From Methylophilus sp. 5 (GTDB lineage: Bacteria; Pseudomonadota; Gammaproteobacteria; Burkholderiales; Methylophilaceae), in the NCBI RefSeq assembly GCF_000515275.1, contig NZ_KI911560.1, positions 2,966,124 to 3,030,123 on the forward strand: 64,000 nucleotides of DNA, read 5' to 3'. Each line of letters opens with the position of its first letter. The first letter of the stretch is position 1. Below, in pieces: positions 5,144 to 23,775 of the stretch. Under the pieces are notes generated by a model. The model was given only the letters and a program-made list of their open reading frames with translations. It had not been told where the DNA came from and did no database searches. The translations under genes and the position numbers were made by a program.

Positions 5144-5178
5144 TTCTTAATCTCCCAACCGTATTTTAAAACGCAATA

Positions 5179-5523
5179 TCAGGCTGTCTGTCGTATCACC
5201 AGCCCACGTAATTTATCCAGCGTTTTACTAATGGCTAGCACCTCTTCATTGGGAATCTGGCGTAAAACCTTTTGGGTTTCGGTATCCACCACTTTCACAA
5301 TGATGCGGTCGCTATCATCGTCGATAGAAAACTCTATCGTTTGTAACGCTGGCGCTACATACTCATTTAACTTTTTGACAGCACCGCTAATCGCAGCTTT
5401 GTCATTTACATCGGCTGCAGCTTTATCAGCAGATGATTCAGCATATTTCACCAGTTTCAAACTACTGGCTGCCTGCACACCCTGCACGCTACTACCTACA
5501 CCATTTACAGATGAATCACTCAT
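5179..5523 (-). CDS. flaG: FlaG family flagellar protein
   Basis: FlaG-type proteins influence filament length in several bacteria; their biochemical role is poorly known. The C-terminal half has the family pattern (KLNEYVAPALQTIEFSIDDDSDRIIVKVVDTETQKVLRQIP, seen here in residues about 50-90). The protein has 114 residues, normal for the family. AAAGGAG precedes the ATG by a good spacing. It lies between fliC and fliD, the usual order in polar flagellar systems. Confidence 0.9.
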   Translation of the reverse strand: MSDSSVNGVGSSVQGVQAASSLKLVKYAESSADKAAADVNDKAAISGAVKKLNEYVAPALQTIEFSIDDDSDRIIVKVVDTETQKVLRQIPNEEVLAISKTLDKLRGLVIRQTA

Positions 5524-5547
5524 GATGTTGCTCCTTTTACCTAGGCC

Positions 5548-5576
5548 AAATCCACAGGGTCTAGGCCTGTGGATTT
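5548..5576 (-). terminator. Stem-loop between fliC and flaG
   Basis: AAATCCACAG and CTGTGGATTT form a perfect 10-bp stem around a 9-base loop, 20 bases after the fliC stop. No long T run follows on the minus strand, so it may only partly terminate or may protect the fliC 3' end. This would allow flagellin to be made in large excess over FlaG and FliD from the same promoter. Confidence 0.6.
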
Positions 5577-5595
5577 AGCGTTACCGTGTGATGGA

Positions 5596-6393
5596 TTAAC
5601 CTCTCAGTAATGTCATCACTTGGTTAGGCAACTGGTTCGCTTGAGCCAGCATCGCAGTACCAGCTTGTTGCAGAATCTGTGCACGTGTCATTTTGGCTGT
5701 TTCTGAAGCAAAGTCAGCATCAGTGATACGAGACTTGGCAGCAGACATGTTCTCAGAAGCCACACCCAGGTTGCTTACGACTGAAGCAAAACGGTTTTGG
5801 TAAGCACCCAATGTCGCACGGCTGGTGTTCACAGCAGTCAATTGTGCGTCAATCGCAGTAATCGCATCTGACGCTGCATCCGCTGTTGACAAAGAGCCAG
5901 ACAAAGAAGCCGCTGCTACTGAAGACACGCTAATGGTATCGCCACTGTCAGCACCAATCTGGAAGTTGTAACCCGCACCGAATGCTGCCTGGCCGTTAAA
6001 CTTGGTTGCAGTGCTCAAACGAGTCAGTTCTGACTTCAATTGCGCAAATTCAGTATCCAGGTTTGCACGGTCACCAGAGCTGTAAGAACCGTTAGCTGCC
6101 TGTACAGCCAGTTCACGCATACGTTGCAATGAATCTGTTGCGCTGCTCAAACCACCTTCTGCAGTTTGCAGGAAGGAAATCGCATCGTTAGCGTTACGTG
6201 TTGCAACATCCATACCGCGAACTTGTGAGTCCATACGTGTTGCAATCGCCATACCAGCCGCATCGTCTTTTGCGCTGTTGATACGCAGACCAGAAGACAA
6301 GCGTTGAATAGAAGTATTCAGGCTGCTTTGGGAAGCGTTTAAGTTACGTTGTGCATTTAAGGATGCCAAGTTGGTGTTAATTACTGAAGCCAT
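5596..6393 (-). CDS. fliC: Flagellin
   Basis: This is the filament subunit, 265 residues. The N-terminal D0/D1 region (SVINTNLASLNAQRNLNASQ, then RLSSGLRINSAKDDAAG) and the C-terminal D1/D0 region (NMSAAKSRITDADFASETA...ANQLPNQVMTLLRG) are both intact. The middle is very short, about 40 residues around 135-175, so the outer D2/D3 domains are missing. That short middle is rich in Ser and Thr (DTISVSSVAAASLSGSLST) and is the likely surface for O-glycosylation. AAAGGAG precedes the ATG, and a sigma-28 promoter lies about 110 bases upstream. A phosphonate operon runs divergently from it. Confidence 0.97.
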   Translation of the reverse strand: MASVINTNLASLNAQRNLNASQSSLNTSIQRLSSGLRINSAKDDAAGMAIATRMDSQVRGMDVATRNANDAISFLQTAEGGLSSATDSLQRMRELAVQAANGSYSSGDRANLDTEFAQLKSELTRLSTATKFNGQAAFGAGYNFQIGADSGDTISVSSVAAASLSGSLSTADAASDAITAIDAQLTAVNTSRATLGAYQNRFASVVSNLGVASENMSAAKSRITDADFASETAKMTRAQILQQAGTAMLAQANQLPNQVMTLLRG

Positions 6394-6506
6394 GTTAAAT
6401 CTCCTTTAGAGGTCGTATACCCAGTTAAGTGTCAAATCGTCATGTTACTTTCAACGTTGATCGCTATTTACCACTTAATGTTTGCTATCTAGCGTTGTTA
6501 GTTGTG

Positions 6507-6533
6507 TTATCGACCGCTTGCGAAATTTCTTTA
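6507..6533 (-). promoter_or_regulatory. Sigma-28 (FliA) promoter of fliC
   Basis: Read on the minus strand, TAAAGAAA, 11 bases, then GTCGATAA. The flagellar sigma-28 consensus is TAAAGTTT-N11-GCCGATAA, so the match is close and the spacing is exact. Transcription would start near 6498, giving a 5' leader of about 100 bases before fliC. The rest of the 6394-6842 gap holds no gene that I can support. Confidence 0.85.
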
Positions 6534-6842
6534 ATACTTGTTGCAAATTTCTTATTTCGATCAATCATGCACTTGAAACTATTTACGACCCCGTTACCAA
6601 AATCTTTAGCCTTTCATTAAGCACTGCACAAAATTGTTTACATCAATCTATTTTATAAAAAGATGTGCCGTTACCATTAACCGAGCTAAATAGAGAATCA
6701 GTCTTAATTCTGCTTTTAAAGCACGTCCCGTTAAACGGCTGGTCATGCGCTCTATATCACACCAGATATAAGGCCGCTTTTCCGCGCTTATCTGCAAATC
6801 ATTCCCGGGCATTGCCAACGATAATCAGGCTATCCATTTCGC

Positions 6843-6860
6843 ATACCTTATATAAGGTAT
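6843..6860. promoter_or_regulatory. 18-bp palindrome upstream of aepX, probable operator
   Basis: ATACCTTATATAAGGTAT is a perfect 18-bp palindrome that ends 24 bases before the aepX start codon, just before its ribosome binding site (AAAGGAG). A dimeric repressor bound here would cover the promoter or early leader of the whole phosphonate operon. Its core CTTATATAAG is the same as the core of the palindrome at 51185-51196 upstream of the GntR-controlled citE operon. Confidence 0.6.
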
Positions 6861-6884
6861 CCAAAAAGACTAAAGGAGTTTTGC

Positions 6885-8183
6885 ATGGCATCAGTTTATG
6901 TAGGGATGACCGTAGACATTCTGCACCATGGCCATATCAATATTATTGAGCAGGCCAGAAAGTATGGCGACGTCACCATCGGCCTGTTATCAGACGCGGC
7001 AGTGGCAGACCATAAACGGCTGCCCTACCTCACTTATGAACAACGTAAACAGATCGTCGGCAATATTCGCGGTGTGGTGAATGTGGTGCCCCAAGAAGAA
7101 TGGGACTACGCGCCTAACCTGCTCAAATACAAACCGGACATCATGGTGCATGGTGACGACTGGCTGGAAGGCCCATTGATGCCCTACCGTGACCGTGCCC
7201 GCGCGGCACTGGCCGAATACGGCGGTCACCTGATTGAGATTCCTTATACGCGTGGCGTGTCCTCTAACGAAATGCTGGGGCAGCTGCAGGCGTTGGGCAC
7301 CACGCCTGATATCCGCCGTCGCACCTTGAAAAGATTACTGACCGTCAAACCGATTTCACGCTTTATTGAAGCGCACAACCCGATCTCGGCACTGATTGCC
7401 GAACATGTTAGCGCAGAGCGCAATGGCAAAAATTGCCAGTTTGATGGTTTCTGGTCCAGCTCGCTGACCGACTCCACCGCACGCGGCAAGCCTGATATTG
7501 AAGCGGTAGAGATCAACAGCCGTTTGTCTAATATTAATGACATTTTCGATGTCACCACCAAACCTTTAATTATGGACGCCGACACCGGCGGCAAGCTGGA
7601 GCACTTTGAACTCAATGTGCGCAGCATGGAACGCCTGGGGATTTCGGCCACTATTATTGAGGACAAAATCGGCCTCAAAAAGAATTCTTTATTTGGCAAC
7701 GAAGTGCCGCAGTTGCAGGACGAGATTGAACCGTTTTGTGAAAAAATTGCTGCAGGCCGTGCTGCCCGCGTCAGTGATGACTTTATGGTGATTGCGCGTA
7801 TTGAGAGCCTGATTCTGGAAAAAGGCATGGCCGATGCCGTCAAACGCGCACAGGCCTATGTCGGCGCTGGCGTGGATGGCATCATGATACACAGCCGCCA
7901 GAAGGCGCCAGACGAAGTGTTTGAGTTTGCCAAGATATTCAAATCAGAATTTCCGACGATCCCGCTGGTATGTGTCCCCACCAGTTACAACAAAGTGACT
8001 GAAGAAGAGCTGGCGGCACATGGCTTTAACCTGGTGATTTATGCTAACCATATGATGCGCGCGGCATATCCGGCCATGCAAAACGCCGCCAGGGAAATTC
8101 TCAAAAATGGCAGGACAGCAGAAATAGAATCCAGCCTGATGTCGATTAACGATGTGCTGGAACTGATCCCAGGCACCAAATAA
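6885..8183 (+). CDS. aepX: Cytidylyltransferase-phosphoenolpyruvate mutase fusion
   Basis: PEP mutase makes the C-P bond by converting phosphoenolpyruvate to phosphonopyruvate, the first step of nearly all phosphonate biosynthesis. Residues 1-about 135 are a nucleotidyltransferase domain with the HxGH motif (H14-H17, in DILHHGHINI) and a later SSNE segment that replaces the usual ISTT. Residues about 145-432 are the PEP mutase, with the diagnostic EDKIGLKKNS signature at E259-S268. Fusions of this kind are known from Treponema and others, where the nucleotidyltransferase activates aminoethylphosphonate with CTP. It is the first gene of a six-gene operon with a strong AAAGGAG site. Confidence 0.93.
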   Translation: MASVYVGMTVDILHHGHINIIEQARKYGDVTIGLLSDAAVADHKRLPYLTYEQRKQIVGNIRGVVNVVPQEEWDYAPNLLKYKPDIMVHGDDWLEGPLMPYRDRARAALAEYGGHLIEIPYTRGVSSNEMLGQLQALGTTPDIRRRTLKRLLTVKPISRFIEAHNPISALIAEHVSAERNGKNCQFDGFWSSSLTDSTARGKPDIEAVEINSRLSNINDIFDVTTKPLIMDADTGGKLEHFELNVRSMERLGISATIIEDKIGLKKNSLFGNEVPQLQDEIEPFCEKIAAGRAARVSDDFMVIARIESLILEKGMADAVKRAQAYVGAGVDGIMIHSRQKAPDEVFEFAKIFKSEFPTIPLVCVPTSYNKVTEEELAAHGFNLVIYANHMMRAAYPAMQNAAREILKNGRTAEIESSLMSINDVLELIPGTK

Positions 8184-8193
8184 GCGGAGCGCC

Positions 8194-9372
8194 ATGATGA
8201 TTGATGCCGAAGATTTTTTAACTGCCCTGCACGCTGAGCAAGTGCAGTTTTTTGCCGGTGTGCCAGACTCACTGCTTAAAGAATTGTGTGCCTGCTTTTC
8301 AGATAGGCTTGCTACAGGCCAGCATGTGATTGCGGCCAATGAGGGCGGTGCCATTGGCTTAGCCATTGGCCACTACCTGGCAACCAATCAACCGGCGCTG
8401 GTTTATATGCAAAATTCAGGCTTGGGCAATGTGGTCAACCCGATCGCTTCACTGGCTGATCCGCAGGTGTATGGCATTCCTATGTTATTGGTGGTTGGCT
8501 GGCGTGGTGAGTTGTCTGCCGATGGCGCACAAATTCATGATGAACCGCAACATGTGAAACAAGGCCAGATCACGCTGCCGCAACTTGAGGTCATGGGCAT
8601 GCCTTATCAAGTCATGTCTACTGAGATCGACACGGCGCAGCAACAGCTGCAAACCCTGTTAAGCCAGGCCATGAAACGCCAAGGCCCGGTTGCCCTGGTG
8701 GTGCGTAAGCAAAGCTTTGCCCCTTACAAAAAAACCAGTGCAGCAACTCAACCGGCGGCTACACTGGCAGATAAATTGCCAGCGCTGCAAAGCCGTGAAC
8801 ACATGATTGAAGCCATCGTGGCTGATTTACCGCAAGATGCAGCGGTGGTCGCTACCACCGGCATGGCGTCACGTGAACTATTTGAACTCAGAAAAGCGCA
8901 ACAGGCCGGGCATGGCCGCGACTTTCTCACCGTTGGTGGCATGGGCCACGCTTCGCAAATTGCCTGCGGCATTGCGCTGGCACAACCTGAGCGCCAAGTG
9001 GTGTGTATTGATGGCGATGGCGCCCTGCTCATGCATATGGGCAGTTTGACCATTAGCGCCCAGCAATCCAACTTGCTGCATATCGTGCTCAATAACGGCG
9101 CGCATGACTCCGTCGGCGGCCAACCCACGGTGGCTGCGCAATTGGGCTTGGCCGAGATTGCCAGCGCGGCAGGCTATGCGCAGGTATTTAGTGTCTCTGG
9201 CGTAGCGCAATTGCAACAAGCATTGCAACACACATTAGCCAGCGGCAAAAGCAGCTTTATTGAAGTGCTGTGCCGCAAAGGCGCGCGTGCTGACCTCGGT
9301 CGCCCCACCCGCACGCCGGCGCAAAACAAGCAGGATTTTATGCAGTTTTTAACCGAGGCCGAATATGCTTGA
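8194..9372 (+). CDS. aepY: Phosphonopyruvate decarboxylase
   Basis: This thiamine-diphosphate enzyme decarboxylates phosphonopyruvate to phosphonoacetaldehyde, the step that pulls the unfavourable PEP mutase reaction forward. The protein has 392 residues, normal for AepY/Ppd. It shows the N-terminal pyrimidine-binding pattern (NEGGAIGLAIGHYLA, then MQNSGLGNVVNPIASL). The ThDP/Mg motif starts at GDGALLMHMGS and ends with NN (VLNNGAHDSVGGQ). The start has GCGGAGC upstream and lies 10 bases after aepX. The end overlaps the next gene by 8 bases. Confidence 0.95.
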   Translation: MMIDAEDFLTALHAEQVQFFAGVPDSLLKELCACFSDRLATGQHVIAANEGGAIGLAIGHYLATNQPALVYMQNSGLGNVVNPIASLADPQVYGIPMLLVVGWRGELSADGAQIHDEPQHVKQGQITLPQLEVMGMPYQVMSTEIDTAQQQLQTLLSQAMKRQGPVALVVRKQSFAPYKKTSAATQPAATLADKLPALQSREHMIEAIVADLPQDAAVVATTGMASRELFELRKAQQAGHGRDFLTVGGMGHASQIACGIALAQPERQVVCIDGDGALLMHMGSLTISAQQSNLLHIVLNNGAHDSVGGQPTVAAQLGLAEIASAAGYAQVFSVSGVAQLQQALQHTLASGKSSFIEVLCRKGARADLGRPTRTPAQNKQDFMQFLTEAEYA

Positions 9373-10360
9373 AGCCTCCCCTAATATACACGCCCATGTG
9401 GCCGCACAAAACCAGCACAAAGTGCTGTTTACCGCCGGGCCAGCGAGCTTGCTCGAAGAAAACCTGCTTGGCCTGCGCCCCTGTTTTGGCCGCGGAGATT
9501 TAGATTACAGCCAGGTTGAAGACGCGGTATTAAGCGCACTCAAAACCATGACTGGCCATGCGCAGATTACGCGCCTGCAAGGCTCTGCCAGCCTGGCGCT
9601 GGAAATCGCCAGCCTCAACTTTTTGCACGGCAAGGTGCTGGTGATAGACAGTGGCTATTATGCCCAGCGCCTGGTTAGCTTTGCGCAACTGGCGCAACGC
9701 ACGGCTGGCCAAGTGTCACTGGTGACTGTCTGCGACTGGCAACAACTGGCAAGCGTCAGTGGTCATTATGACTGGGTCGTCGCTTGCTATACCGAAACCA
9801 GTGCCGGTTTATTGTTGCCGATTGCCGATTTGCGCGCATTGGCAGATCGTGTGGGTGCGCAACTGATGCTGGATGCCACCGCCTCTATTGGGCTGGAGAC
9901 AGACCACGGCCTGGCCGATGTGATTGCCTACAGCTCTTGCAAAGGCTTGTTTGGCCTCACCGGCGCGGCGTTTATTGCTTTTAATCAATTACCCAAGCAC
10001 GAGGTCGACTCGTTTTACCTCAACTTGACGACGCACCTCGAACGCCGCATGACCGGCCCTTATCACGCCATTGCCTCTTTATACGAAGTATTGCCCAAGC
10101 ATGCTGATTTACGTGAAGCGGTGTTTATCAACAAAGCACACATGCTGAAAAAGATTGCCACCTACGCCACGCACCCTGTGCATTACCAACCAGTGTTGTG
10201 CACCTGGGTCGATGCCAAAGTGAGCAGCCAGGATGCGCGTGCAGTGCTGTACCAACCACGCGGCATTAGCCGTGGCAGCGTGGTTTGCCACTTAGGCGAA
10301 GCGCATCTGGGCAGCACGGCACAAGGGGCGATTCTCGATTTACTGGAGCTACAACCATGA
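9365..10360 (+). CDS. Class V aminotransferase, probable 2-aminoethylphosphonate-forming
   Basis: This PLP enzyme of 331 residues has FTAGPASL near the N terminus, as in PhnW. It has the cofactor Asp in LMLDATASIG and the likely Schiff-base Lys in SSCKGLFGLTGAAF. In this position it should aminate phosphonoacetaldehyde to 2-aminoethylphosphonate. It is shorter than catabolic PhnW (about 365), and no phosphonatase (phnX) is nearby, which favours the biosynthetic direction. It overlaps the aepY end by 8 bases and the next start by ATGA. The exact substrate is inferred from the operon. Confidence 0.8.
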   Translation: MLEASPNIHAHVAAQNQHKVLFTAGPASLLEENLLGLRPCFGRGDLDYSQVEDAVLSALKTMTGHAQITRLQGSASLALEIASLNFLHGKVLVIDSGYYAQRLVSFAQLAQRTAGQVSLVTVCDWQQLASVSGHYDWVVACYTETSAGLLLPIADLRALADRVGAQLMLDATASIGLETDHGLADVIAYSSCKGLFGLTGAAFIAFNQLPKHEVDSFYLNLTTHLERRMTGPYHAIASLYEVLPKHADLREAVFINKAHMLKKIATYATHPVHYQPVLCTWVDAKVSSQDARAVLYQPRGISRGSVVCHLGEAHLGSTAQGAILDLLELQP

Positions 10361-10770
10361 CGCAGCCGCCAAAACGCATTATGGTCGATATGTCAGCCAC
10401 GCTGATCCATCACGGCCACGTGCGCTTGTTAAAAGCCGCTAAGCAATTAGGCCATGTGGTGGTCGCGCTCACCACCGATGAAGAGATTCGTGCCAAAAAA
10501 GGCTACGAGCCTGAGCTTGATTATGCGGCACGCGCCGAAGTATTACTGGCACTGCGCGACGTAGACGAAGTGGTGCCTAGCCCCTGGCTGCTGGATGAAG
10601 CGTTTATACAATTGCACCAGATTGATCTGCTCGTACACGGCCACGATAACAGCAACCAGATTGCAGCCGATAAATTACATATTTTGCCGCGCACAGAAGG
10701 CATCAGCAGCACCTTGTTGCGTGCCCGCGTGCTCAAAGCCGTCAGTCAAAAAATGGAAGCAAATACATGA
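10357..10770 (+). CDS. Stand-alone cytidylyltransferase-like protein
   Basis: This is a single 137-residue nucleotidyltransferase domain of the glycerol-3-phosphate/ethanolamine-phosphate cytidylyltransferase type. It has the HxGH motif in ATLIHHGHVRLL (residues about 17-20) and a C-terminal EGISST that matches the family RTEGISTS/T motif. It would activate a phosphate or phosphonate alcohol/amine with CTP. I start it at the ATGA overlap with the preceding gene. This is the second such domain in the operon. The better-preserved EGISST here makes it the stronger candidate for the active enzyme. Confidence 0.82.
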   Translation: MTQPPKRIMVDMSATLIHHGHVRLLKAAKQLGHVVVALTTDEEIRAKKGYEPELDYAARAEVLLALRDVDEVVPSPWLLDEAFIQLHQIDLLVHGHDNSNQIAADKLHILPRTEGISSTLLRARVLKAVSQKMEANT

Positions 10771-11465
10771 GTAACCTCTGGCAACAGATTTGGGAAAAAC
10801 GCACGCTGCAACCGCAGCACGCCATCACGCTGGATACTTTGATTGCGCTGGATGGCTTTGATAGCGGCGCCGGTAAAATCAACCCGGCCGACTGGCAGGA
10901 ATATACGCGCCGTATCAGTGATAAACTGGGCCTTAGCTCTGGTGACTCTGTGTTTGAAGTCGGTTGTGGCGCCGGTGCTTTTTTATATGCGCTGCGTCAA
11001 CAACATACATTGACGGTGGGTGGCCTCGACTATGCCGCCGGGCTGATTGAAGCCGCGCAGCAGGCCATGCCTGATGGTGACTTTCAGGCGCAGCCTGCAC
11101 AAACCATGGCCACCGAGCCCCAATATGACTTTGTGATCGCCAACAGCGTGTTTCATTACTTTGACGAAGCCATGGCCGCCGAGGTATTCCAGGCCATGTG
11201 GCAAAAAGCCAAGGTGGGTGTCGCCATTCTGGATATCCCACATGCAGCCACGCGCGAAGCCTGCGAGCACGCCCGCCGCGATGCGCTGACAGTTGCCGAG
11301 TATGAAGAAAAATACCGTGGCTTGCACCACACCTATTACACCCCTGAATGGTTTAGCCAGCAATTGCCGCAAAAACCGCATCAGGTGTTTGAAAGCTGCG
11401 TACCCAATTATGCACAAAGCCAATTTCGCTTTAGTGTTATTTTTACTAAACGCTTGCATGGATAA
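10767..11465 (+). CDS. Class I SAM-dependent methyltransferase
   Basis: The 232-residue protein has SAM motif I (VFEVGCGAGAFLYAL, residues about 60-74), an acidic motif II (GLDYAAGLIEAAQ) and a motif IV region (YDFVIANSVFHYFDE). The start overlaps the previous stop by ATGA, so it is translationally coupled to the cytidylyltransferase. The substrate cannot be read from the sequence. The context suggests methylation of the amino group of aminoethylphosphonate or of a sugar in the final glycan. Confidence 0.8.
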   Translation: MSNLWQQIWEKRTLQPQHAITLDTLIALDGFDSGAGKINPADWQEYTRRISDKLGLSSGDSVFEVGCGAGAFLYALRQQHTLTVGGLDYAAGLIEAAQQAMPDGDFQAQPAQTMATEPQYDFVIANSVFHYFDEAMAAEVFQAMWQKAKVGVAILDIPHAATREACEHARRDALTVAEYEEKYRGLHHTYYTPEWFSQQLPQKPHQVFESCVPNYAQSQFRFSVIFTKRLHG

Positions 11466-11471
11466 ACCATC

Positions 11472-12863
11472 ATGACGAATACCCTTTCGCACCAACCTGT
11501 GTTCACCTTTTTTTATACTGACAACTGCGAACGCCAGGCATTGGCACCCGTTGCCGACGAAATCGCCAGCAGAGGCTATGTGATTCAATGGAGCACCGAC
11601 TCCAGGCAATATGCCGAGGTTGGCGTTTACTGCGAGCATGCTTGCAAACCCAATGCCGGATTTTCTGTCATATTGCTGCACGATTTGGCCCAGCGCCATG
11701 ATATCTGGCCACATTTCTGGCACCACGAGCCCTGGTCTGCCTTTGACATTGGCGTTGTGCCAGGCCCAGCCTGGGTTGAGCGCTGGCAAACACAAGCTAA
11801 TTTCAAGCAGGCGCAGCCCAAGCTAGGTATGTTTGACCTCGGTTGGCCCAAGGCTGATTTGGTCTATCGCAATCAGGATACCTTTAAACAAGAAGCGCAA
11901 AAATTGCGTGAGCAGCTGGGCTTAAAATACGAGCACTCTATTTTGTATGCGCCATCATGGGAAAACCACGGCAAGCAAGATGAGTTTGTGCAAAGCCTGA
12001 AAGACTTGCCAGTCAACCTGCTGCTAAAACAAGCACCATGGTCAGACAAATACCGCTGGGTGCTGAATAACATCGACGAGATGGACGCACTGCATCGCGA
12101 TTGCGCCGATAACGTGTATGTGATTGATCGCGAAATCAGCATTATGTATTGCTTAGGGTTGGCCGACGTGATGGTGTCGGATGAGTCTAGTGTACTCACA
12201 GAAGCCTTATTGCTCGATGTGCCCGGCATTGCCGTCACCGACTGGCTGATTCCAGACACCAATCCGCCGCGCCCGGCCAGTGTGCCGTATGACTACGTGA
12301 TTAAAACCGTGAAAGCCGACTTGCGCCGCACGGTTGAAGACGTGCTGCAAAACGCCGCCACCTACCAGCAACAACTCGCCCAAAACAAACAACACCAGTT
12401 TGCCCACCTGGGGCAAAGTGCCACCTTGATTGCCGATAACATTCTCGCCGCCCTCGCTGGCGCAACAGAATTACCGACGCCAGCGATTAAATCTCAGGTA
12501 GAGGTTGACCGTAACACCTATCACTATGCCGAAAAACTGGCCGCCGAAGGCGATATGAAACTGTCTACGCAAGTGATGCTGGAGCTGATTAAAAAAGAAA
12601 GTTGTTGCTGGGAGCCTTACAATGACTTGGGGACGTTGTTAGTCAGCCAGGGCCAATTTGAAGATGCCGAGCTGCTGCTGGAAAAAGCCGTACTATTGGC
12701 ACAAGAAAATGCGACGATTCCGCTCAGCAACCTGACAGAGGTCTATTGCCTGCAACAAAAAGCAGATAAGGCCTTGTTAACCTTGGCCAAACTTAGCAAA
12801 TACACACCTAACCCGGTGGGCTCTATTCCGCATATTCGCCGTTGCATGGAAACCATGTTTTAA
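11472..12863 (+). CDS. TagF-like CDP-alcohol phosphotransferase with TPR tail
   Basis: Residues about 1-345 resemble the CDP-glycerol:glycerophosphotransferase family (TagF/TagB). They have the conserved segments ILYAPSWENHG, LLLKQAPWSD and VMVSDESSVLTEALLLDVPG, the family's nucleotide-binding C-terminal part. Residues about 355-463 are TPR-like helices (AEKLAAEGDMKLSTQVMLEL, then NDLGTLLVSQGQFEDAELLLE). The family transfers an alcohol phosphate from a CDP/CMP donor to a glycan. Here the donor is presumably a CMP-phosphonate made by the operon. The TPR tail may hold the acceptor protein or the neighbouring TPR-rich glycosyltransferase. It lies six bases after the methyltransferase and is the last gene before a terminator. 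Confidence 0.82.
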   Translation: MTNTLSHQPVFTFFYTDNCERQALAPVADEIASRGYVIQWSTDSRQYAEVGVYCEHACKPNAGFSVILLHDLAQRHDIWPHFWHHEPWSAFDIGVVPGPAWVERWQTQANFKQAQPKLGMFDLGWPKADLVYRNQDTFKQEAQKLREQLGLKYEHSILYAPSWENHGKQDEFVQSLKDLPVNLLLKQAPWSDKYRWVLNNIDEMDALHRDCADNVYVIDREISIMYCLGLADVMVSDESSVLTEALLLDVPGIAVTDWLIPDTNPPRPASVPYDYVIKTVKADLRRTVEDVLQNAATYQQQLAQNKQHQFAHLGQSATLIADNILAALAGATELPTPAIKSQVEVDRNTYHYAEKLAAEGDMKLSTQVMLELIKKESCCWEPYNDLGTLLVSQGQFEDAELLLEKAVLLAQENATIPLSNLTEVYCLQQKADKALLTLAKLSKYTPNPVGSIPHIRRCMETMF

Positions 12864-12884
12864 AACACGCCATACCGCATCTTT

Positions 12885-12917
12885 AAAATCCGGCCACCTG
12901 CGTATGCCGGATTTTTT
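12885..12917 (+). terminator. Terminator of the phosphonate operon
   Basis: AAAATCCGGC and GCCGGATTTT form a 10-bp stem around an 11-base loop. A T run follows, 21 bases after the last stop codon of the plus-strand operon. Confidence 0.88.
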
Positions 12918-12951
12918 ATTGACTGACTGTTCTACCTGTTCTACAGGCATT

Positions 12952-12985
12952 AAAAAAGCATGCACATCACGGTGCATGCTTTTTT
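12952..12985 (-). terminator. Terminator of the giant glycosyltransferase gene
   Basis: AAAAAAGCATGCAC and GTGCATGCTTTTTT form a perfect 14-bp stem with a 6-base loop. It lies 15 bases after the stop of the minus-strand 2494-codon gene. The A/T ends allow function in both directions. Confidence 0.9.
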
Positions 12986-13000
12986 AATCAGCGCTGCTTG

Positions 13001-16000
13001 TTATGTAAACAGTTGGCGCACCGGTAACTCGGCACGCGTGAACTCAGCCGTGAGGCCATTCACCACATGCTCTGGCGCACCTTGCGTCATATTTTGCAGA
13101 CGGTTAAACACACTGATCAACGCTTGTAGTTGGTCATCGCGGTAATGGTAGCCATTGGCCTCCAGCACCGCCAGCGTCAAGCTACCAAGGTTGCTTGGCG
13201 TGCTGGCATGTGGTTTGCCGCAACTGCGCACGCGGTGCAAGGTGAGGAACAAACCTCGCAAAGCCACAAAAGCCACTGGTAGCGGGATAGCAAAATCCCA
13301 TTCCAGGTCAAAGAAATGGCCCTGCCCGGCTTTATCCATCACAAAATTGGTTGGCGTCGCATCAAAATACTGTGAAGGCAGCAAGGCTGAATAGCCCGCA
13401 AACTCTGGCAAGGTTTTGCCGCCTGTTAGCGCAGCGGCCTCCAGGCCTTGCAACCAGGGCGCAGCCCAGGCCGCCAGGTCTTCTACACGCCAGCCAGGGC
13501 GGTTCATCAACTGGGTCAGTTTGTCCATCCACAACTGGCCGCCATGGTAAGGTGCGTGCTCCCACGCAGCCTGCAACAACTGTGCAGTTTCACCAGTATT
13601 ACGCGTACGCGTTGCCAAGCCTTGCTCTGCCTGCACAAACTGGGTTTCTTTGCTAAACACTGCCTGGCGTTGGCAACCATAATGCGCAGCTAATACGTCA
13701 GGGTGCAATTTAGTTGCCTGGCGTTGCGGGTAAGCCACAAACATAAAGGAGTTGGCCACATCTTCAACCAGGTTATTACGTGCAATCACCTGCCAGGCGT
13801 TCTCGAGTGAAAATGTCGGATGACGTGGTGATTGTCTGTCATGCACCACTGAGCCAGCGGCCAATGCGCCTACATCCCAGCCTGCGGCACGGTGTGCCTG
13901 GTTAAAACCCTCCGGGTAAATCACGCTGACAGGGGTTTTATAGTCAGGTAATGGTACATAAAGCTCGGTTGTTTCAAAGCCTGCACTGCGGATCAAGGCA
14001 TCCAGTTCTACGCGGCCAAACGTGATCGGGCTGGTCGTGCTGTAAGAATCATTGATGCCATACATGGCTTGCCCCATATGGTCTTCAGGCGCGCCGCAAA
14101 AGTACTTGAGGCCTAACTGGTTTTCAATCGCCACGATCAGCATGCCATCTTCTTTAAGGAAAGACTTGGCCGTTTGCAGCAAAAAGCGCAAAGGATCGGC
14201 TTCTTTCACATAGACCTGCGCGTATTCAAGCACGCCTATCAAAGTGACGACATCAAATTTTTCATCGGTTTCAAACGACTGAATCAGGTCAGAGTAAATC
14301 GTCACATTGTTCAAATCGACACAACGCTGGCCGATCACGCGCGCACGATTCGGGCTACCTTCCAGCGCCACCACTTCACCACCCAACTCGCCCAAAAAGC
14401 GGGTAATCGCGCCGCAACCGGCGCCCAACTCTAATACTTTACCGTTGGCGATTTTGTCAGCAAACGGACGTAACAAATTGGCACGTTGTGAAGTCAGGTG
14501 ATAGTAACTCGGCCAGTCGGTCGCCTTGGCGGCCAACTCACTCGAAAACACGCTCTTGTCGCGGGACTGGCGAATCATGTCATACAGGCGCTGCTCGGCA
14601 TTGCCCACATCCTGGTAGCCAAACGCCTCATTTTGCGCGCGCTGATAAAAGTTGTCTTGCGCACGGTAAATATACGGCCCTTTGCGCACAACATCAGCGG
14701 CAACCGCGGGCTGGCTGTATTGGCCTTGCAATGCATCCGCATCAGCGGCGGCCAGGCCATTCTGGCGGGCAAACGTGATCACATCCAGCACTTCATTTTT
14801 GGGTGCCGTCAACGACAGCTCGCCAATGTAAGCTTGCCAGTAGGCAGGTTGTTGCGGTGCCAGGATCACAGCCTGCTCCAGCAGCGGCAAGACTTCTTCT
14901 GCTTTGCCCGCTTGTTGTGCCAATAACCCTAACTGAAAATACGTGGCAGCATGCTTGTCGTCGATACGCAAGATTTCCTGATAAAAGCGCATCGCCTGCG
15001 CTAAATCACCTTGTTGCTGCATTTGCAACGCCTGCTGAAACACCTCAGTAATCGAGTCTTGCAGTGCGTTAGCCGGTGCCGCTTGTGGGTTAAGTGTTGT
15101 ATTCATAGAGATACCTTTATCAGAGGGTTCAGTCACGCCTGGCGCAACAGAAGGTTCTTTCAGCGTTAAGGAAGGAATAGCAAAGCTTGTGGCAGCTTGC
15201 CCCTGGCACCAGCGCTGCCACATCTGGCGCACGGCCTGTGACAAGGCTTGCGCCAATGGGGTCGCTTGTGCCAATGCAGACTGCGCAAAACGTGCGCGCA
15301 TAGTGGCGCGTAAATCAGCCAGCGCTTGCAGGTCAGACAATACATATTGAGCTTGTGGTACAAATTGCTGCGGGGTTGCTGCTACCCAGTCGGTAAGACC
15401 CAGATGCTGCATCAGCGCCATGGCACCACGGCTGGCCAGTCGGTCGCCAGCCACACACAGTGTTGGTACGCCCATCCATAACGCATGGGCCGTGGTGGTC
15501 ACGCCATTAGACGGGAATGTATCCAGGCAAATATCGACCAAGTGATATTGCTGCAAATAATTGCGCATATCGGTGCGAGCATAAAACGATAGGCGATCAG
15601 CCGAGATACCCGTTTCGGCAAACCATTGCTGCACATGCGTACATGCGCCCGCCTCTGCCATGCCGCCCACTACCATACGGCTGCCTGGGCAAGCCTGCAT
15701 TACAGCGGCCCATTGTTGCACCGTGGCTTGGGTAATTTTGTTGGGGCGGTTAAAGCAGCCAAAAGTGATAAAGCCATTGCTGAGCGCAGGCAAAGTATTG
15801 ACGGCTGGTGCCTGTGGATGCGGTACAAAGGGCGCATTCACCGGCAATTGCACCAGCTGCTCGGTAAACTGCTGGTCAAACTGCCCGGCTGGCAACAATG
15901 CACTGTCGGCCAGGTAATAATCCATAGACGTCAGGCCTGTGGTATTCAAATAACCTAACCAACTGGCCTGCACGGGTGCTGGTTTTCTGGCAAACGTCAG

Positions 16001-19000
16001 TAAGCGATTGCCAGAGGTGTGGCCGGACAAATCAATCAGGATATCAATCTGGTCTTGCCTGATGGTCTCTGCCAGTGCTTCATCGGATACGCTTGAAACC
16101 ATGCGCCATTGTTTGAAGTACTGACGCATCTCGGCAGTGACTTCGTCCTCCAGTGCGTAATTAGCATAGGCAAACAGGTGCAATGTGCTGTCCTGCGCCA
16201 GCGAAGGCAACAAAGGCAACAGAAAATGCGCCACTGAATGCGCGCGCAAATCGGCAGAGACAAAACCGACACGCAGCGGACGTGCTGCATCACGCGTATT
16301 GCTGTGCGGCTGCCAATCGGCTTTTAACGGCGCCTCATACAGTGCGGCATAAGCCGTATGCGCTTGCAACAAGGCTTCGTTATCCACATGCGCGGCATGC
16401 GTCATGCAAAATAGCAAATTGCTAAAGCAATCGGCATACTGCGGCTGCAAGCGCAGCGCCTGCTTGAATTGCTTGATGGCTTCATCGACCTCGCCCAAAT
16501 CTTTGAGCACACTACCCAGATTGTTATATGCCGCAGCGTAATCTGGTTTCAGGTGTATGGCCTGGGCAAAGGCGGCTGCGGCTGCATTGAGTTCATTTTG
16601 TGCTTTGAGGACCAGCCCGTAGTAGCAATGCTCTTCAGCGCTTTGCTTATTCAGCGCCAGCGCTTTGCTGGCCGCTAGGCGGGCATCTTTCTTCTGTATC
16701 ATTAACACATCAGACAGCATTTTCCAGCCACTGAGCCAGACAGGATATTGCTGCAATAGGGTATGCAATTCACCTTCCATCTCGGCATATTGCTGTTGTT
16801 CGAACAGGCCCAGCAATGCTTGCTGGACTTGATCTGATGGCTGTATATTGGTCGTTTGCACTGGCAACTGCCAGTCTTGCATCAGCGCTTGCAAAGCCTG
16901 TGCATGCTGGCCATTACTCATGGCTTGCGCGAATACTTGCTCCAGCTTGGCGGTCTCATTACTGTTTTTGAGTGCCGTCAGATAGCTGCTTAACAACTGC
17001 CACTGCGCTGGGGCTAGCGCATAAGCCTGCGCCAGCAAGCGCAATGCCTCTGTTTGCTGCCTAGCCTGCCAGTAAATCAAACCCAAATTATGGGTAGCGA
17101 GTGCATGCTGGACATCTACCGCAAGAATTTCCTGGTATAGCTGCCTGGCCGTTTCCAGGTCGCCCTGCTGCTGTGCACGTGAAGCCAGGTCAAATACCTC
17201 GGCCATCGAGTCTTGCAAGGCAGTCGATACTGGCGTCTGAGTGGGTTCCCACTTGTGGCGATAGCTCAAATAGGTTTCACGCCAGCGCGCACTGCCAAAA
17301 GCCCCGCCACTCTGGTGTGTCATGCGTACAGGCCACACGCCTAGTTTCAACCCGGCACGCGTGGCGGTACGGCAAAAATCCAGGTCATAAAAATGAAACT
17401 CAAACTGCTGGTCAAAACGCACGCCGCTTTGCAGCAAGGTTTGCTTGTGTGCGGCCAGAAAAACGCCGTCCATCAACTGGCACTCACCAGACACATCACC
17501 ATAACTGGAGGCTGGGCCAAATGCATGCTGGCCATGGCTCACGGCACCACGCAAATAGCGCGTATCGTCCCAGGTGAACTGCAAATCTACAAAGCACCAG
17601 CCAGGCTGGCCAGGCTGCACCCGGGCATTGCCTGCAATGCCAATCACATCATATTGCTGCAAGCCCTGCTGCATGGTGTGTACAAAAGCGTTTTCATCCA
17701 GCCAGACATCATCGTGTATCAGTACCAGCAAGGCATGGTCAGGCGCGGCAGCAATCGCTTCATTAAACACTTGCGATAAGCCGCGTGTGTTTTCATAAGC
17801 CACCACTGGCACCAAGCGCTGATCCTGCTGCATATGCCGTTTGAGTGACCGGCCCAAAGCAGACTCACGCCAAAAGGCTTGTTCTGTCATGCGCGTTGCA
17901 CTCACTACCCAAACTGGCTGCTCACCGGCAAAAGCATCTTGCACCGGGGCCGCAGCCAATAGCTGCTCAGGGCTTAAATCTGCCAGTGTTTGCTGCCAGA
18001 GGCCAAACAGTAATTGCTCAAAGTCGTGGGCAAACTGCCCGGCATTCATCAATGGTGAAGCCAGCACCTGCTCACGCAGTTGCGCGCGCAAGGCAGCTAA
18101 CGCATCCAGGTCGCTCGCCAGCGCAATCGCTTTGCGCACGTAGTCAGCACGGCTGGTTGCCACCCAATCATGCAAGCCCACGCACTGCAAAAAGCTTGCC
18201 CCCTGGCGGGCAATTAAAGTGTCTCCGAGCAAAGTGACGGTGGGCACGCCCATCCATAAGGCTTCGCAGGTGGTGGTGCCGCCCGTAAACGGGAACGTAT
18301 CCAGAATCACATCCACCTGATGATGATTACGCAGGTATTCTTCTCGTGGCACCATGCCAGATAAGGTGCAGCGTGCCGCGGCAATACCGTATTGTTGTAA
18401 CCTGGCCAAGGCTTCTTCGCGCACCAGGCCATCATTAAACGCCTTGCTTTGCCAGAACAAGCTGGCCGTTGGCAAGGCCTGCAAGACTTCACCCCAGCAA
18501 GCTAATACGTCGTCACTCACCTTGCTGTAGTTTTGAAAACAACCAAATGTCAGCGTCCCGCTGGTCAATGCCGGTAAGGCATTCACAGCAACATCGCAAG
18601 GCGGTGCAGTAAAGCACATGCGTGTATGTGGCAGATGTACCACTTGCTCGGTGAACTGTGTTGCCACCTGCGCATCAATACTCACCGGGTCAGCAATCAC
18701 ATAATCCATGACTGGCAAGCCAGTCGTCCCCCAGTAACCGAGCCAGGTCGCCTGCACCGGTGCAGGTTTATGCGCAAAAATCGGTAAACGGGTGCCACCA
18801 GACAAACCGGATAAATCCAGCAAAATGTGCACACCATCTTCGCGAATCTGTTTCGCCGCCTGTGCATCGGTCAATCCGGCCAGCGAGCGCCACTGGTTGC
18901 ATAAATCTTTCAACTCATGCGAAAAAGCATCTTCACGGCCATCGGTTGAATATCCATAGATTTCTAAACGGCTGGCATCAAAAGCCTGCAACCATTGATG

Positions 19001-20485
19001 CAGAAAATAGCCTACCGGGTGTTTGCGCAAATCAGCCGATACCAGGCCAATACGAATACGTTGTTCCTGCGCATGCACCTGCCAGCTGTCGTATGGCGTC
19101 ACATCATGCATCATGGCCGCGCCGAGTCTGTGGGCGTAGTCCAGGCTCTCGTTCGGCGGCAAGCCATTGTTATAGCTGTTGGCAAACAACACATTTCTGA
19201 GCGCCATCATGTGTGTAGGCTCAATCTGCAAGGCTTGCTGCAAGGTGACAATAGCGGTGTCAATCTGGCCCATGTCTAAATACACGTTAGCCAGATTAAT
19301 ATAGGCAGGCATGAATTCAGGCTTGATACGCAACGCTTTTTCCAGGCAGACGATCGCTTCGGTATAACGGCCCAGCATGCGCAAATTGATGCTGTAGTTG
19401 TTTAAGATGCTTTCAGACTCAGGCAACTGCTGCAATGCTTTTTCACAATACAGGCAAGCTTTGTCATAGGCGTTTCTGGCATTCTCAATCAACGCCAGGT
19501 TAGCCTGCACATAAGGATTTTCTGGGTCTAACGCCAACGCTTTCTGGCAATAAGTCTCAGCCTCGCCATACAACTGCTGGTTCAACATCTCGGTGGCGAG
19601 GTTATTCAGCATCTCAGGGTTTACGCCTTGCGCCTGCATGACCTGGTCAATATAGGCCTGATACTCTCTGGTGCGGTGTGTCACGCGATACAGCTTGGCC
19701 AGATTTTTGAGTAGAGACAACTCGGCAGGGTTTAATGCTATGCCAGCCAGCAACCACTGCTCAGCCTCTTCTACATCGCCATGCTTGAGATAGAGTGCAC
19801 CCAGGTAGCTGTAGGCCTCTACATAGTCTTTTTGAATCGCAATCGTTTGCTGGTAAGCCGCAATCGCCTCCGCCGTATTGCCCAACTGATCCAGCGCCAG
19901 CGCCAGATTGAAAAAAATCACAGCATTGCCAGGTTCAATCGCCACCGCTTCACGATAGTATTGAATCGCCTCCAGCGGTTTTTCTGCCTCATGCAACAAA
20001 GTCGCCAGTTCAAAGTTAACGCGACCATCCTGCTGATGAATATTAAGGCCCCGGCGCAATAGTTTTTCGGCCTCTTTTAATTGGCCGGTTTGCTTGAGCA
20101 CACTGGCCCAATTAGCATAAGCCAGGCTAAACGCCGGGTTCAATTTGAGTGTCTGCCGATAGTATTTAATCGCCTGCGCAGGCTCTTGCAGTTGCGCATA
20201 GACATTAGCCAGGTTATACAACACCTCGGCATCTTTTTTTAAGCTTTTGCTGGCCTGCAAAAAAGCCTCAGCAGCCAAGGCTAAGGCATCTTGTTGTTGA
20301 TACAGGCTGCCTAATAACTTCCAGGCCAAGCCTTCTTCAGGAAACTCACGGGTAATCTTTTGCGCCAAGCTTAAACATTGCGCCCACGCCCCCTGCTTCC
20401 AGGCCTGGGTCAGCGCTTGCATCCAATAGCTGCAATCCTGCGCATTCACAGCAGTAGACTGCATATGGCCTGGCGAGAGTTTCAT
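13001..20485 (-). CDS. Giant TPR / double OGT-type glycosyltransferase with GT2-like and methyltransferase modules
   Basis: A single uninterrupted protein of 2494 residues with no signal peptide, so cytoplasmic. Order: TPR repeats (about 30-450); OGT/GT41 catalytic module 1 (about 475-835, with GLVSADLRKHPVGYF and DTFPFTGGTTTCEALWMG); a GT2-like module (about 853-1085, VWVVSATRMTEQAFW, IHDDVWLDE, FYDLDFCRTA); a second TPR block (about 1095-1390); OGT module 2 (about 1400-1770, GFVSADLRAHSVAHF, DTFPSNGVTTTAHALWMG); a short TPR block (about 1800-1900); a SAM methyltransferase module (about 2010-2170, KVLELGAGCGAITRF, with VVALEGSP); and a C-terminal extension. GT41 enzymes transfer sugars to Ser/Thr of proteins. 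Its place beside fliC and the phosphonate operon points to flagellin or another surface protein as acceptor. The ribosome site is weak (GGAATT, 13 bases away). Confidence 0.9.
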   Translation of the reverse strand: MKLSPGHMQSTAVNAQDCSYWMQALTQAWKQGAWAQCLSLAQKITREFPEEGLAWKLLGSLYQQQDALALAAEAFLQASKSLKKDAEVLYNLANVYAQLQEPAQAIKYYRQTLKLNPAFSLAYANWASVLKQTGQLKEAEKLLRRGLNIHQQDGRVNFELATLLHEAEKPLEAIQYYREAVAIEPGNAVIFFNLALALDQLGNTAEAIAAYQQTIAIQKDYVEAYSYLGALYLKHGDVEEAEQWLLAGIALNPAELSLLKNLAKLYRVTHRTREYQAYIDQVMQAQGVNPEMLNNLATEMLNQQLYGEAETYCQKALALDPENPYVQANLALIENARNAYDKACLYCEKALQQLPESESILNNYSINLRMLGRYTEAIVCLEKALRIKPEFMPAYINLANVYLDMGQIDTAIVTLQQALQIEPTHMMALRNVLFANSYNNGLPPNESLDYAHRLGAAMMHDVTPYDSWQVHAQEQRIRIGLVSADLRKHPVGYFLHQWLQAFDASRLEIYGYSTDGREDAFSHELKDLCNQWRSLAGLTDAQAAKQIREDGVHILLDLSGLSGGTRLPIFAHKPAPVQATWLGYWGTTGLPVMDYVIADPVSIDAQVATQFTEQVVHLPHTRMCFTAPPCDVAVNALPALTSGTLTFGCFQNYSKVSDDVLACWGEVLQALPTASLFWQSKAFNDGLVREEALARLQQYGIAAARCTLSGMVPREEYLRNHHQVDVILDTFPFTGGTTTCEALWMGVPTVTLLGDTLIARQGASFLQCVGLHDWVATSRADYVRKAIALASDLDALAALRAQLREQVLASPLMNAGQFAHDFEQLLFGLWQQTLADLSPEQLLAAAPVQDAFAGEQPVWVVSATRMTEQAFWRESALGRSLKRHMQQDQRLVPVVAYENTRGLSQVFNEAIAAAPDHALLVLIHDDVWLDENAFVHTMQQGLQQYDVIGIAGNARVQPGQPGWCFVDLQFTWDDTRYLRGAVSHGQHAFGPASSYGDVSGECQLMDGVFLAAHKQTLLQSGVRFDQQFEFHFYDLDFCRTATRAGLKLGVWPVRMTHQSGGAFGSARWRETYLSYRHKWEPTQTPVSTALQDSMAEVFDLASRAQQQGDLETARQLYQEILAVDVQHALATHNLGLIYWQARQQTEALRLLAQAYALAPAQWQLLSSYLTALKNSNETAKLEQVFAQAMSNGQHAQALQALMQDWQLPVQTTNIQPSDQVQQALLGLFEQQQYAEMEGELHTLLQQYPVWLSGWKMLSDVLMIQKKDARLAASKALALNKQSAEEHCYYGLVLKAQNELNAAAAAFAQAIHLKPDYAAAYNNLGSVLKDLGEVDEAIKQFKQALRLQPQYADCFSNLLFCMTHAAHVDNEALLQAHTAYAALYEAPLKADWQPHSNTRDAARPLRVGFVSADLRAHSVAHFLLPLLPSLAQDSTLHLFAYANYALEDEVTAEMRQYFKQWRMVSSVSDEALAETIRQDQIDILIDLSGHTSGNRLLTFARKPAPVQASWLGYLNTTGLTSMDYYLADSALLPAGQFDQQFTEQLVQLPVNAPFVPHPQAPAVNTLPALSNGFITFGCFNRPNKITQATVQQWAAVMQACPGSRMVVGGMAEAGACTHVQQWFAETGISADRLSFYARTDMRNYLQQYHLVDICLDTFPSNGVTTTAHALWMGVPTLCVAGDRLASRGAMALMQHLGLTDWVAATPQQFVPQAQYVLSDLQALADLRATMRARFAQSALAQATPLAQALSQAVRQMWQRWCQGQAATSFAIPSLTLKEPSVAPGVTEPSDKGISMNTTLNPQAAPANALQDSITEVFQQALQMQQQGDLAQAMRFYQEILRIDDKHAATYFQLGLLAQQAGKAEEVLPLLEQAVILAPQQPAYWQAYIGELSLTAPKNEVLDVITFARQNGLAAADADALQGQYSQPAVAADVVRKGPYIYRAQDNFYQRAQNEAFGYQDVGNAEQRLYDMIRQSRDKSVFSSELAAKATDWPSYYHLTSQRANLLRPFADKIANGKVLELGAGCGAITRFLGELGGEVVALEGSPNRARVIGQRCVDLNNVTIYSDLIQSFETDEKFDVVTLIGVLEYAQVYVKEADPLRFLLQTAKSFLKEDGMLIVAIENQLGLKYFCGAPEDHMGQAMYGINDSYSTTSPITFGRVELDALIRSAGFETTELYVPLPDYKTPVSVIYPEGFNQAHRAAGWDVGALAAGSVVHDRQSPRHPTFSLENAWQVIARNNLVEDVANSFMFVAYPQRQATKLHPDVLAAHYGCQRQAVFSKETQFVQAEQGLATRTRNTGETAQLLQAAWEHAPYHGGQLWMDKLTQLMNRPGWRVEDLAAWAAPWLQGLEAAALTGGKTLPEFAGYSALLPSQYFDATPTNFVMDKAGQGHFFDLEWDFAIPLPVAFVALRGLFLTLHRVRSCGKPHASTPSNLGSLTLAVLEANGYHYRDDQLQALISVFNRLQNMTQGAPEHVVNGLTAEFTRAELPVRQLFT

Positions 20486-23488: not shown

Positions 23489-23511
23489 CGTTAATATTCC
23501 TTTTAAGGAGG

Positions 23512-23775
23512 CTAAAAATGCCCGTTTATAATGTCGTGTAATCTTACCCCCTGCCTTTGCATCATGCGGTATAAGCTGCGAAAAGTCCACGGATTGCCAC
23601 GGCTGGTTTGTATATTGCCAGCGTTCAATCTCTCGGCCAATTCTTTATAACCAAGCCTAGGTCGCCTTAAATAAAAACGCCTTAAATTTAAAGGCATGGC
23701 CTTTCTGGTTTTGTGCCAAGTTATCACCAGCGCAATGATTGCTTGATTATGTTGTTTTATCTCTAATCTGTTCAT
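23512..23775 (-). CDS. Small recombinase-like helix-turn-helix protein
   Basis: An 87-residue basic protein. The segment YKELAERLNAGNIQTSRGNP followed by WTFRSLYRMMQRQG matches the DNA-binding Recombinase domain of large serine recombinases (LN-x2-GI-x-T-x-RG-x2-W). The catalytic serine domain is absent. Such mini-proteins are common in small mobilizable islands; a role in relaxosome or regulation is a guess. GGTGAAG precedes the ATG at 23775. It lies 96 bases after the relaxase gene. Confidence 0.65.
   Translation of the reverse strand: MNRLEIKQHNQAIIALVITWHKTRKAMPLNLRRFYLRRPRLGYKELAERLNAGNIQTSRGNPWTFRSLYRMMQRQGVRLHDIINGHF

Follow-up and report, generated by a model that had tools for sequence, protein, structure and literature searches.

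A phosphonate biosynthesis operon in a probable flagellin-glycosylation island of Methylophilus

Results

Genes of the fliC locus

The stretch analyzed here (the window) comprises 64,000 nucleotides of Methylophilus sp. 5 (contig NZ_KI911560.1, positions 2,966,124 to 3,030,123) from a genome of 3.03 Mb in one contig, and carries a set of phosphonate genes next to the flagellin gene fliC. An earlier note on this DNA had described genes for phosphoenolpyruvate (PEP) mutase, phosphonopyruvate decarboxylase (Ppd), cytidylyltransferases (CyT), a methyltransferase and a TagF-like transferase facing a 2494-residue protein (hereafter the giant) beside fliC; Pfam and TIGRFAM profile scans recovered all of these genes in place (Table 1). 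On the minus strand, fliC belongs to a fliK-fliT-fliS-fliD-flaG-fliC run. Divergent from it, across a fliC-aepX gap of 491 bp, is a six-gene operon encoding a CyT-PEP mutase fusion, Ppd, an aminotransferase, a second cytidylyltransferase (CyT2), a methyltransferase and a TagF-like protein with tetratricopeptide repeats (TPRs), in which all neighbours overlap or are at most 10 bp apart. The operon and the gene of the giant are convergent, with two terminator-like hairpins, identified by eye, in between.

Table 1 Features of the fliC locus in the window.
Feature	Position	Strand	Basis or remark
fliC, flagellin, 265 amino acids	5596..6393	-	Flagellin_N 152.4 bits, Flagellin_C 89.6 bits (Pfam); probable acceptor protein
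Sigma-28-like promoter of fliC	6507..6533	-	1 mismatch to TAAA-N15-GCCGATAA
aepX-like gene, CyT (residues ~1-135) + PEP mutase (~148-431) fusion	6885..8183	+	CTP_transf_like + PEP_mutase; TIGR02320
Phosphonopyruvate decarboxylase (aepY/ppd)	8194..9372	+	TIGR03297 479 bits
Divergent class-V aminotransferase, probable 2-aminoethylphosphonate (AEP) transaminase	9365..10360	+	PDB 7e7g match; TIGR03301 below cut-off
CyT2, second cytidylyltransferase, probable CTP:AEP cytidylyltransferase	10357..10770	+	CTP_transf_like 51.9 bits; ATG at 10357
S-adenosylmethionine (SAM) methyltransferase (MT)	10767..11465	+	Methyltransf_25 44.7 bits
TagF-like CMP-phosphonate transferase (~1-335, putative) + C-terminal TPRs (~342-463)	11472..12863	+	Glyphos_transf PF04464 28.3 bits
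Giant TPR-GT41-GT2-TPR-GT41-TPR-methyltransferase/kinase-like protein, 2494 amino acids	13001..20485	-	Pfam domain matches
First GT41 domain of the giant (residues ~464-840), OGT/SPINDLY-like	17966..19096	-	5djs and SPINDLY 7y4i matches; motifs
Second GT41 domain of the giant (residues ~1405-1790; approximate bounds)	15116..16273	-	Pfam stretches + motifs
giantC, C-terminal module of the giant (residues ~1938-2494), SAM methyltransferase + kinase-like	13001..14674	-	Separate gene in Methylotenera

Enzymes of the operon and domains of the giant

The PEP mutase scores 415.3 bits against TIGR02320 (cut-off 319.55) and has the motif EDKxxxxxNS, as EDKIGLKKNS at residue 259; the decarboxylase likewise exceeds its cut-off (479 vs. 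312.5 bits). The N-terminal CyT domain of the aepX product is closest to 5x3d (E 8.1e-45; listed as PEP phosphomutase), which we take to be the CyTase domain of Fom1, and both CyT domains of the operon retain HHGH and GxSS-type motifs. For the aminotransferase, the best PDB match is AEP-pyruvate transaminase 7e7g (E 4.1e-13), and D170 and K193, which we take to bind pyridoxal phosphate, are invariant across 6 aligned sequences. In G045, a family member of another genus, a domain 65% identical to CyT2 is fused to an AepZ domain scoring above the TIGR03301 (PhnW-AepZ) cut-off (379.8 vs. 360.8 bits), a Rosetta-stone case suggesting that CTP:AEP cytidylyltransfer is the probable role of CyT2. The methyltransferase gene is present in the operon at all 13 mapped loci that have both aepX and TagF. 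At the Methylophilus locus L055, a single TAG interrupts the aepX frame (4437-5732) at codon 133, where one domain gives way to the other, and an ATG comes immediately after; this may mean that the fusion is naturally split there, each domain being made on its own, or that the gene is broken.

The TagF-like protein matches PF04464 at 28.3 bits against a cut-off of 22.1, has TPR matches and a predicted GT-B fold like that of TagF/TarL-like transferases, and is the sole PF04464 match in the genome. A protein-database search, which carries no genomic context, gave 297 homologues, the best 120 of which were listed. Two of them, P0062 and P0067, combine the TagF part in one chain with a methyltransferase and a protein-kinase-like domain of eukaryote type (the P0067 matches are below cut-offs).

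The giant had been described previously as an OGT-type glycosyltransferase, and the assignment to glycosyltransferase family 41 (GT41) stands; that description left out a second GT41 domain, a GT2-like domain, TPRs and a C-terminal methyltransferase plus kinase-like module. Pfam gives Glyco_transf_41 at 361.7 bits in four stretches, Glyco_tranf_2_5 at 28.1 bits, TPRs and Methyltransf_12 at 38.7 bits. The first GT41 domain matches 5djs (E 1.2e-73) and SPINDLY 7y4i (E 1.7e-71) and has H489, K655 and LDTFP at 728, to which H1416, K1583 and LDTFP at 1654 correspond in the second. GT41 enzymes are protein glycosyltransferases, and the giant unites a TPR region with an OGT-like GT-B domain, the combination that marks FlmG-type enzymes.

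Conservation within the Methylophilaceae

The earlier note had proposed a survey of aepX next to fliC in the Methylophilaceae, and we searched 187 genomes of the family, with thresholds of E 1e-20 for giantC, 638 bits or more for a strong TagF match and E 1e-30 for aepX. The TagF search gave matches in 60 of the 187 genomes at E ≤ 0.001, of which 44, with 62 bits or less and mostly confined to the TPR region, were dropped. Strong TagF (at least 638 bits; next best 61.9) was thus found in 16 genomes, 13 of them among the 22 of the genus and 3 outside it, aepX in 15 and giantC in 17. The gene order, with fliC and aepX divergent and TagF and the giant convergent, is the same in all 11 genus members with a strong aepX match (the window and 10 fetched loci); all 11 have the operon located with fliC-flaG-fliD, and in the fetched loci the fliC-aepX spacing is 474-511 bp. 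The order in Methylotenera is giantN-aepX-aepY-aminotransferase-CyT2-MT-TagF-giantC, and fliC lies on the same contig in 3 of 3 loci, within ~1.6 kb after giantC in two of them and 22 kb on in the third (G141). Because the two are adjacent in 11 of 11 genus members with a strong aepX match and near each other in two further lineages, the association of fliC with the operon is more than chance. On a tree of FliC, FliD, FlaG and FliS (20 rows), the aepX label requires three changes, at least two of which are forced by the starred branches.

Strict co-occurrence of giantC, TagF and aepX was rejected, with four genomes as exceptions. G076 and G079 have TagF without an aepX match, on contigs of 4.6 and 4.9 kb; G045, which is 48% complete, has aepX without TagF or giantC; the fourth, G143, belongs to g18, the genus of the Methylotenera loci, and is a case of natural operon decay. 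At its locus (L067, 9570-10640), two deletions have brought the beginning of aepX up against CyT2, and CyT2 against the TPR end of TagF, and both parts of the giant are open.

The most constant partner of TagF is giantC, which the earlier note overlooked: it is present in all 16 strong-TagF genomes, all 4 loci outside the family have a relative after TagF (30-45% identity in matched pieces), and in Methylotenera it is a stand-alone gene adjoining TagF, a Rosetta-stone link. It includes the methyltransferase domain of WbdD-like methyltransferase-kinases, and its predicted model (predicted local distance difference test score 94.1) was aligned by Foldseek with the WbdD entries 4azt, 4azs and 4ax8 over 575-586 columns, at TMq 0.27 and a root-mean-square deviation of 18.5-20. 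In a second structure comparison, WbdD was absent from the 50 matches listed. Residues D450, N455 and D468, which we take to be kinase-like, are invariant in 41 sequences. Kinase identity by sequence was dropped: all 60 PDB matches listed for the giantC profile cover positions 65-200, the methyltransferase part, with no WbdD among them, and the alignment with the tails of P0062 and P0067 is confined to the same part. The predicted fold is suggestive of a WbdD-like methyltransferase plus kinase-like module.

Relatives lacking the operon

All TagF-negative genus members except G070 and G077 were mapped. Two Methylophilus genomes, G060 and G061, lack aepX; each has fliC in three copies and a giant from which the C-terminal module is missing. 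Between giant and fliC, G061 has genes for a TPR protein, a GNAT protein, a methyltransferase, a protein with a weak FAD-type match, an aldo/keto reductase, PhyH and FdtA, and G060 has a formyltransferase-ankyrin protein and FdtA; the two genomes share a DegT aminotransferase gene located between two of the fliC copies (L057 and L058). By analogy with known flagellin islands, these genes appear to be of amino-sugar type. In G075, a TOD1_MUCI70 glycosyltransferase-like protein is encoded between fliC and giant, and in G066, G069, G078 and G071 fliC is present with no giant match in the fetched stretch. A giant-like protein is encoded ~1 Mb from fliC in G066, with GNAT and methyltransferase genes, and on a contig other than that of fliC in G078 and G069.

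Loci outside the family

In 84,980 genomes, two peptide patterns, which may miss distant relatives, gave 16 loci: 10 from Methylophilus, 3 from Methylotenera and one each from Andreprevotia, a Pseudomonadota metagenome-assembled genome and Accumulibacter. A search for additional independent contexts gave matches in 4 of 399 genomes of the order (by coordinates, 3 Methylophilus and 1 Andreprevotia), 1 of 43 of the Andreprevotia family and 2 of 369 of the class, including G000, the genome of the window. In Andreprevotia the PEP mutase is fused to MobA, the cluster also encodes Ppd, an aminotransferase resembling AepZ (268 bits from a partial frame, under the AepZ cut-off), a second MobA-type transferase and a methyltransferase (52%), and a 2061-residue TagF-giantC-RgpF-GT2 fusion (L083, 9998-16183) lies directly upstream of fliC, flaG and fliD. 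Thus, nucleotidyltransferases of another family fill the same two roles, and fliC is again adjacent.

Flagellin composition and promoters

In the flagellin of the window, Ser and Thr make up 27% of residues 136-180 compared to 21% overall. The short, Ser/Thr-rich middle had been taken as suited to O-glycans; however, flagellins of operon-less relatives have 27-31% Ser+Thr in the same region and similar lengths, so that neither feature is discriminating, and both were rejected as evidence. Taking the sigma-28 consensus to be TAAA-N15-GCCGATAA, the window has 14 matches with at most 2 mismatches compared to 4.54 expected, and fliC is preceded by a 1-mismatch site in every relative tested (Methylophilus, 10 of 10 other loci; Methylotenera, 2 of 2). 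Another match with 1 mismatch lies within CyT2 (10647-10673, plus strand) and is not conserved, with 2-9 mismatches in 13 relatives. Shared sigma-28 control of fliC and the operon was rejected, the fliC site being the only conserved one among those compared (before fliC, within CyT2 and before aepX).

Discussion

We read the locus as a flagellin-glycosylation island that carries a phosphonate pathway as variable cargo, with a probability of roughly two in three; flagellin as the acceptor is well supported by context. The substrates, the order of steps and the flagellin target are those that we infer from the gene identities, the predicted folds and the conserved association with fliC. The PEP mutase would form phosphonopyruvate, which the decarboxylase would convert to phosphonoacetaldehyde and the aminotransferase to AEP, and the stand-alone CyT2 would turn AEP into CMP-AEP. 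The FlmG-like TPR/GT41/GT2 giant would bind cytoplasmic flagellin prior to export and assemble a short O-glycan, onto which the TPR-bearing TagF-like enzyme would move the phosphonate from CMP; N-methylation of AEP is a possible role of the small methyltransferase, and giantC, with its methyltransferase and kinase-like parts, would modify the glycan further. The flagellin reading is strengthened because the fliC association survives both rearrangement and a change of nucleotidyltransferase family, and because the operon-less G060 and G061 hold genes of apparent amino-sugar type in the giant-fliC region. Transfer of CMP-activated AEP to the flagellin glycan by the TagF-like enzyme, as put forward before, is the reading best supported by the context in relatives; the identity of the group as AEP is less secure.

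A phosphonate on flagellin is in itself already known. The earlier note knew of no such flagellin, but 2-AEP on GlcNAc of Clostridioides difficile flagellin, in a small fraction, was shown in 2022 (PMC8861647), the sole report that we found among the papers listed in searches of the open-licence PMC literature. As reported there, C. difficile is without pepM, and the source of its AEP is open; the novelty of the present locus appears to be that a flagellin island has a phosphonate pathway of its own. The closest parallels are the type A island of C. difficile (cd0240-0244) and the b-type island of Pseudomonas aeruginosa PAO1 (pa1088-1091), which, as described in PMC10714395 and PMC8861647, likewise encode a nucleotidyltransferase, a methyltransferase and a TagF-like transferase together with a glycosyltransferase, a likeness at the level of families. 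It has been proposed that CD0242 makes CDP-threonine, TagF-like CD0244 transfers it and CD0243 methylates (PMC10714395), and the group of PAO1 flagellin is given as N,N-dimethylthreonine (PMC11833859). In both islands the flagellin sugar bears a phosphorus-linked, N-methylated, amine-containing group (PMC10714395, PMC8861647), the same kind as we propose here; however, the group coded there is N-methylated phosphothreonine, whereas the island analyzed here has a PEP mutase pathway and a GT41-bearing glycosyltransferase. No phosphoserine-phosphatase-like Pfam family, for the type A enzyme that supplies phosphothreonine, was detected at E ≤ 0.001 in the seven island proteins (for the giant, among the best 25 of 28 families). 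By analogy, the operon appears to follow type A logic, with a phosphonate pathway replacing the phosphothreonine supply.

The giant resembles FlmG of Caulobacter in architecture. FlmG is reported to be modular and soluble, with a flagellin-interacting N-terminal TPR domain and a GT-B domain (PMC7591256); it has 596 residues, one GT domain and pseudaminic acid as its sugar, compared to 2494 residues, two GT41 domains, a GT2-like domain and a methyltransferase/kinase-like module here. The PntC and Fom1 pathways, as described in PMC6697681, share the PEP mutase-nucleotidyltransferase fusion, sometimes with a second nucleotidyltransferase nearby, as well as Ppd and a transaminase, whereas the aminotransferase here is divergent. 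Later phosphonyl-tailoring steps are called unknown in that source, whose main text does not contain the strings 'flagell' or 'TagF'. WbdD, the chain terminator of O9a O-antigen (PMC3482155), has a methyltransferase followed by a kinase-like domain, and the Foldseek alignments span nearly the whole giantC model, a likeness of predicted fold; giantC differs in being fused to a glycosyltransferase and in giving no sequence-search match to WbdD, with the low TMq and high deviation noted above. In Prochlorococcus and SAR11, a phosphonate on a protein-linked glycan has been proposed (PMC8931226); the Prochlorococcus cluster has PglC/Wzx/PglL-type genes, in contrast to the GT41 domains beside flagellin here.

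Several observations weigh against the flagellin reading. The Methylophilus loci are related by descent and hence do not represent 11 independent cases, and flagellin features did not co-vary with operon presence in the relatives compared. No conserved sigma-28-like site was found upstream of aepX in the window and 13 relatives (best 3-5 mismatches), and the best upstream match of the giant in the window has 3 mismatches. The decayed G143 lost most of the operon through its two internal deletions while keeping fliC (on another contig), giantN and giantC. TPRs on TagF are not strictly tied to a flagellin context: the Andreprevotia TagF, though adjacent to fliC, matches residues 4-330 only, and several database homologues have TPRs. 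As to AEP, the aminotransferase that the earlier note counted in its complete set is divergent: it scores only 72.5 bits against the TIGR03301 cut-off of 360.8 and is 21% identical to the AepZ domain of G045. Because of this divergence, AEP is a likely but not certain product. The loci with no fliC match in the stretch fetched, taken up below, count on the same side.

The alternative that survives best, falling somewhat short of even odds, is that flagellin is modified but with a group other than plain AEP, such as N-methylated AEP, a different phosphonate or a phosphate from the kinase-like domain. Apart from the divergent aminotransferase, this is favoured by the methyltransferase and giantC as constant partners and by the likeness of the N-terminal aepX domain to 5x3d, presumably Fom1. 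The substrate of Fom1 is given as hydroxyethylphosphonate in PMC6697681. Conversely, the operon encodes Ppd and an enzyme resembling AEP transaminases, the scan of its proteins gave no alcohol dehydrogenase family, and the homologue of CyT2 is joined to an AepZ that exceeds its cut-off. On balance, AEP or N-methyl-AEP is likely to be the attached group.

We consider it unlikely that the phosphonate decorates an envelope polysaccharide or lipopolysaccharide, the fliC neighbourhood being inherited or incidental, although several loci point that way. L084 has a PEP mutase-MobA gene and an ABC-2 exporter gene beside TagF and the giantC relative, and L085 has PEP mutase-MobA and an ABC ATPase whose match to Wzt_C is below cut-off; both are of polysaccharide-export type, with no fliC match in the stretch. 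L090 (G700) has flippase, ManC- and GMD-type genes beside the TagF-giantC pair, with no aepX match in its 11.9 kb and no fliC match in the stretch fetched. In G045 (L086, 9467-13412), aepX, Ppd and the CyT2-AepZ fusion lie in a GDP-sugar/flippase cluster of exopolysaccharide type, again with no fliC match in the stretch. As reported in PMC6697681, most bacterial phosphonate capacity tailors cell surfaces. Because the TagF/giantC loci outside the family include such polysaccharide-type clusters, the TagF module is a general glycan-end tool rather than a flagellin-only one. At the locus itself, however, no polysaccharide polymerase, flippase or exporter family was found in the 16 proteins scanned (window 1418-24624), the GT41 domains belong to a family of protein glycosyltransferases, the fliC association outlasts rearrangement and recurs in a cluster with different nucleotidyltransferases, and apparent amino-sugar genes fill the region in operon-less relatives.

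That the giant and TagF target flagellar or surface proteins other than flagellin is improbable: GT41 enzymes are able to act on many proteins, and giant-like proteins are encoded far from fliC or on separate contigs in G066, G078 and G069, but each of the 11 genus members with aepX has the operon together with fliC-flaG-fliD, and FlmG provides a precedent (PMC7591256). A secreted small-molecule phosphonate, for which the PEP mutase/CyTase fusion known from fosfomycin synthesis (Fom1; PMC6697681) might speak, can be set aside as highly improbable, given that the scan of operon proteins gave no family for export or resistance and that the locus has a TagF-like transferase and glycosyltransferases in their place.

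Beyond the flagellin-island reading itself, a more speculative scenario, which we regard as doubtful, is that an O-antigen-style capping module (TagF-like plus WbdD-like) was captured by flagellin islands at least twice, in the Methylophilaceae and in Andreprevotia, on TPR scaffolds in the former, and as a cytoplasmic machine caps flagellin O-glycans with (possibly N-methylated) aminoethylphosphonate and methylated phosphate prior to export. If so, a C-P bond specified by the genome would be a lasting feature of the flagellins of these methylotrophs. The PEP mutase pathway lies in a flagellin island of cultured bacteria, including Methylophilus methylotrophus DSM 46235, in which the making and activation of a phosphonate and its placement on a protein glycan could be studied together with effects on swimming, grazing and phage attack. 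TagF and its methyltransferase/kinase-like partner are a candidate enzyme pair for phosphonate transfer, and the shedding of an abundant filament that bears a stable C-P group could also add to freshwater phosphonate pools.

Two further regions of the window may be mentioned. Near the island, an open reading frame at 22763-23590 has no Pfam match and a Mob_Pre relaxase-like one lies at 23872-24624, a possible trace of a mobile element. At 54332-55267, the window encodes another member of the PEP_mutase/isocitrate-lyase family, the second in the genome; it shows 27% identity to the PEP mutase in a partial alignment and is probably a methylisocitrate lyase.

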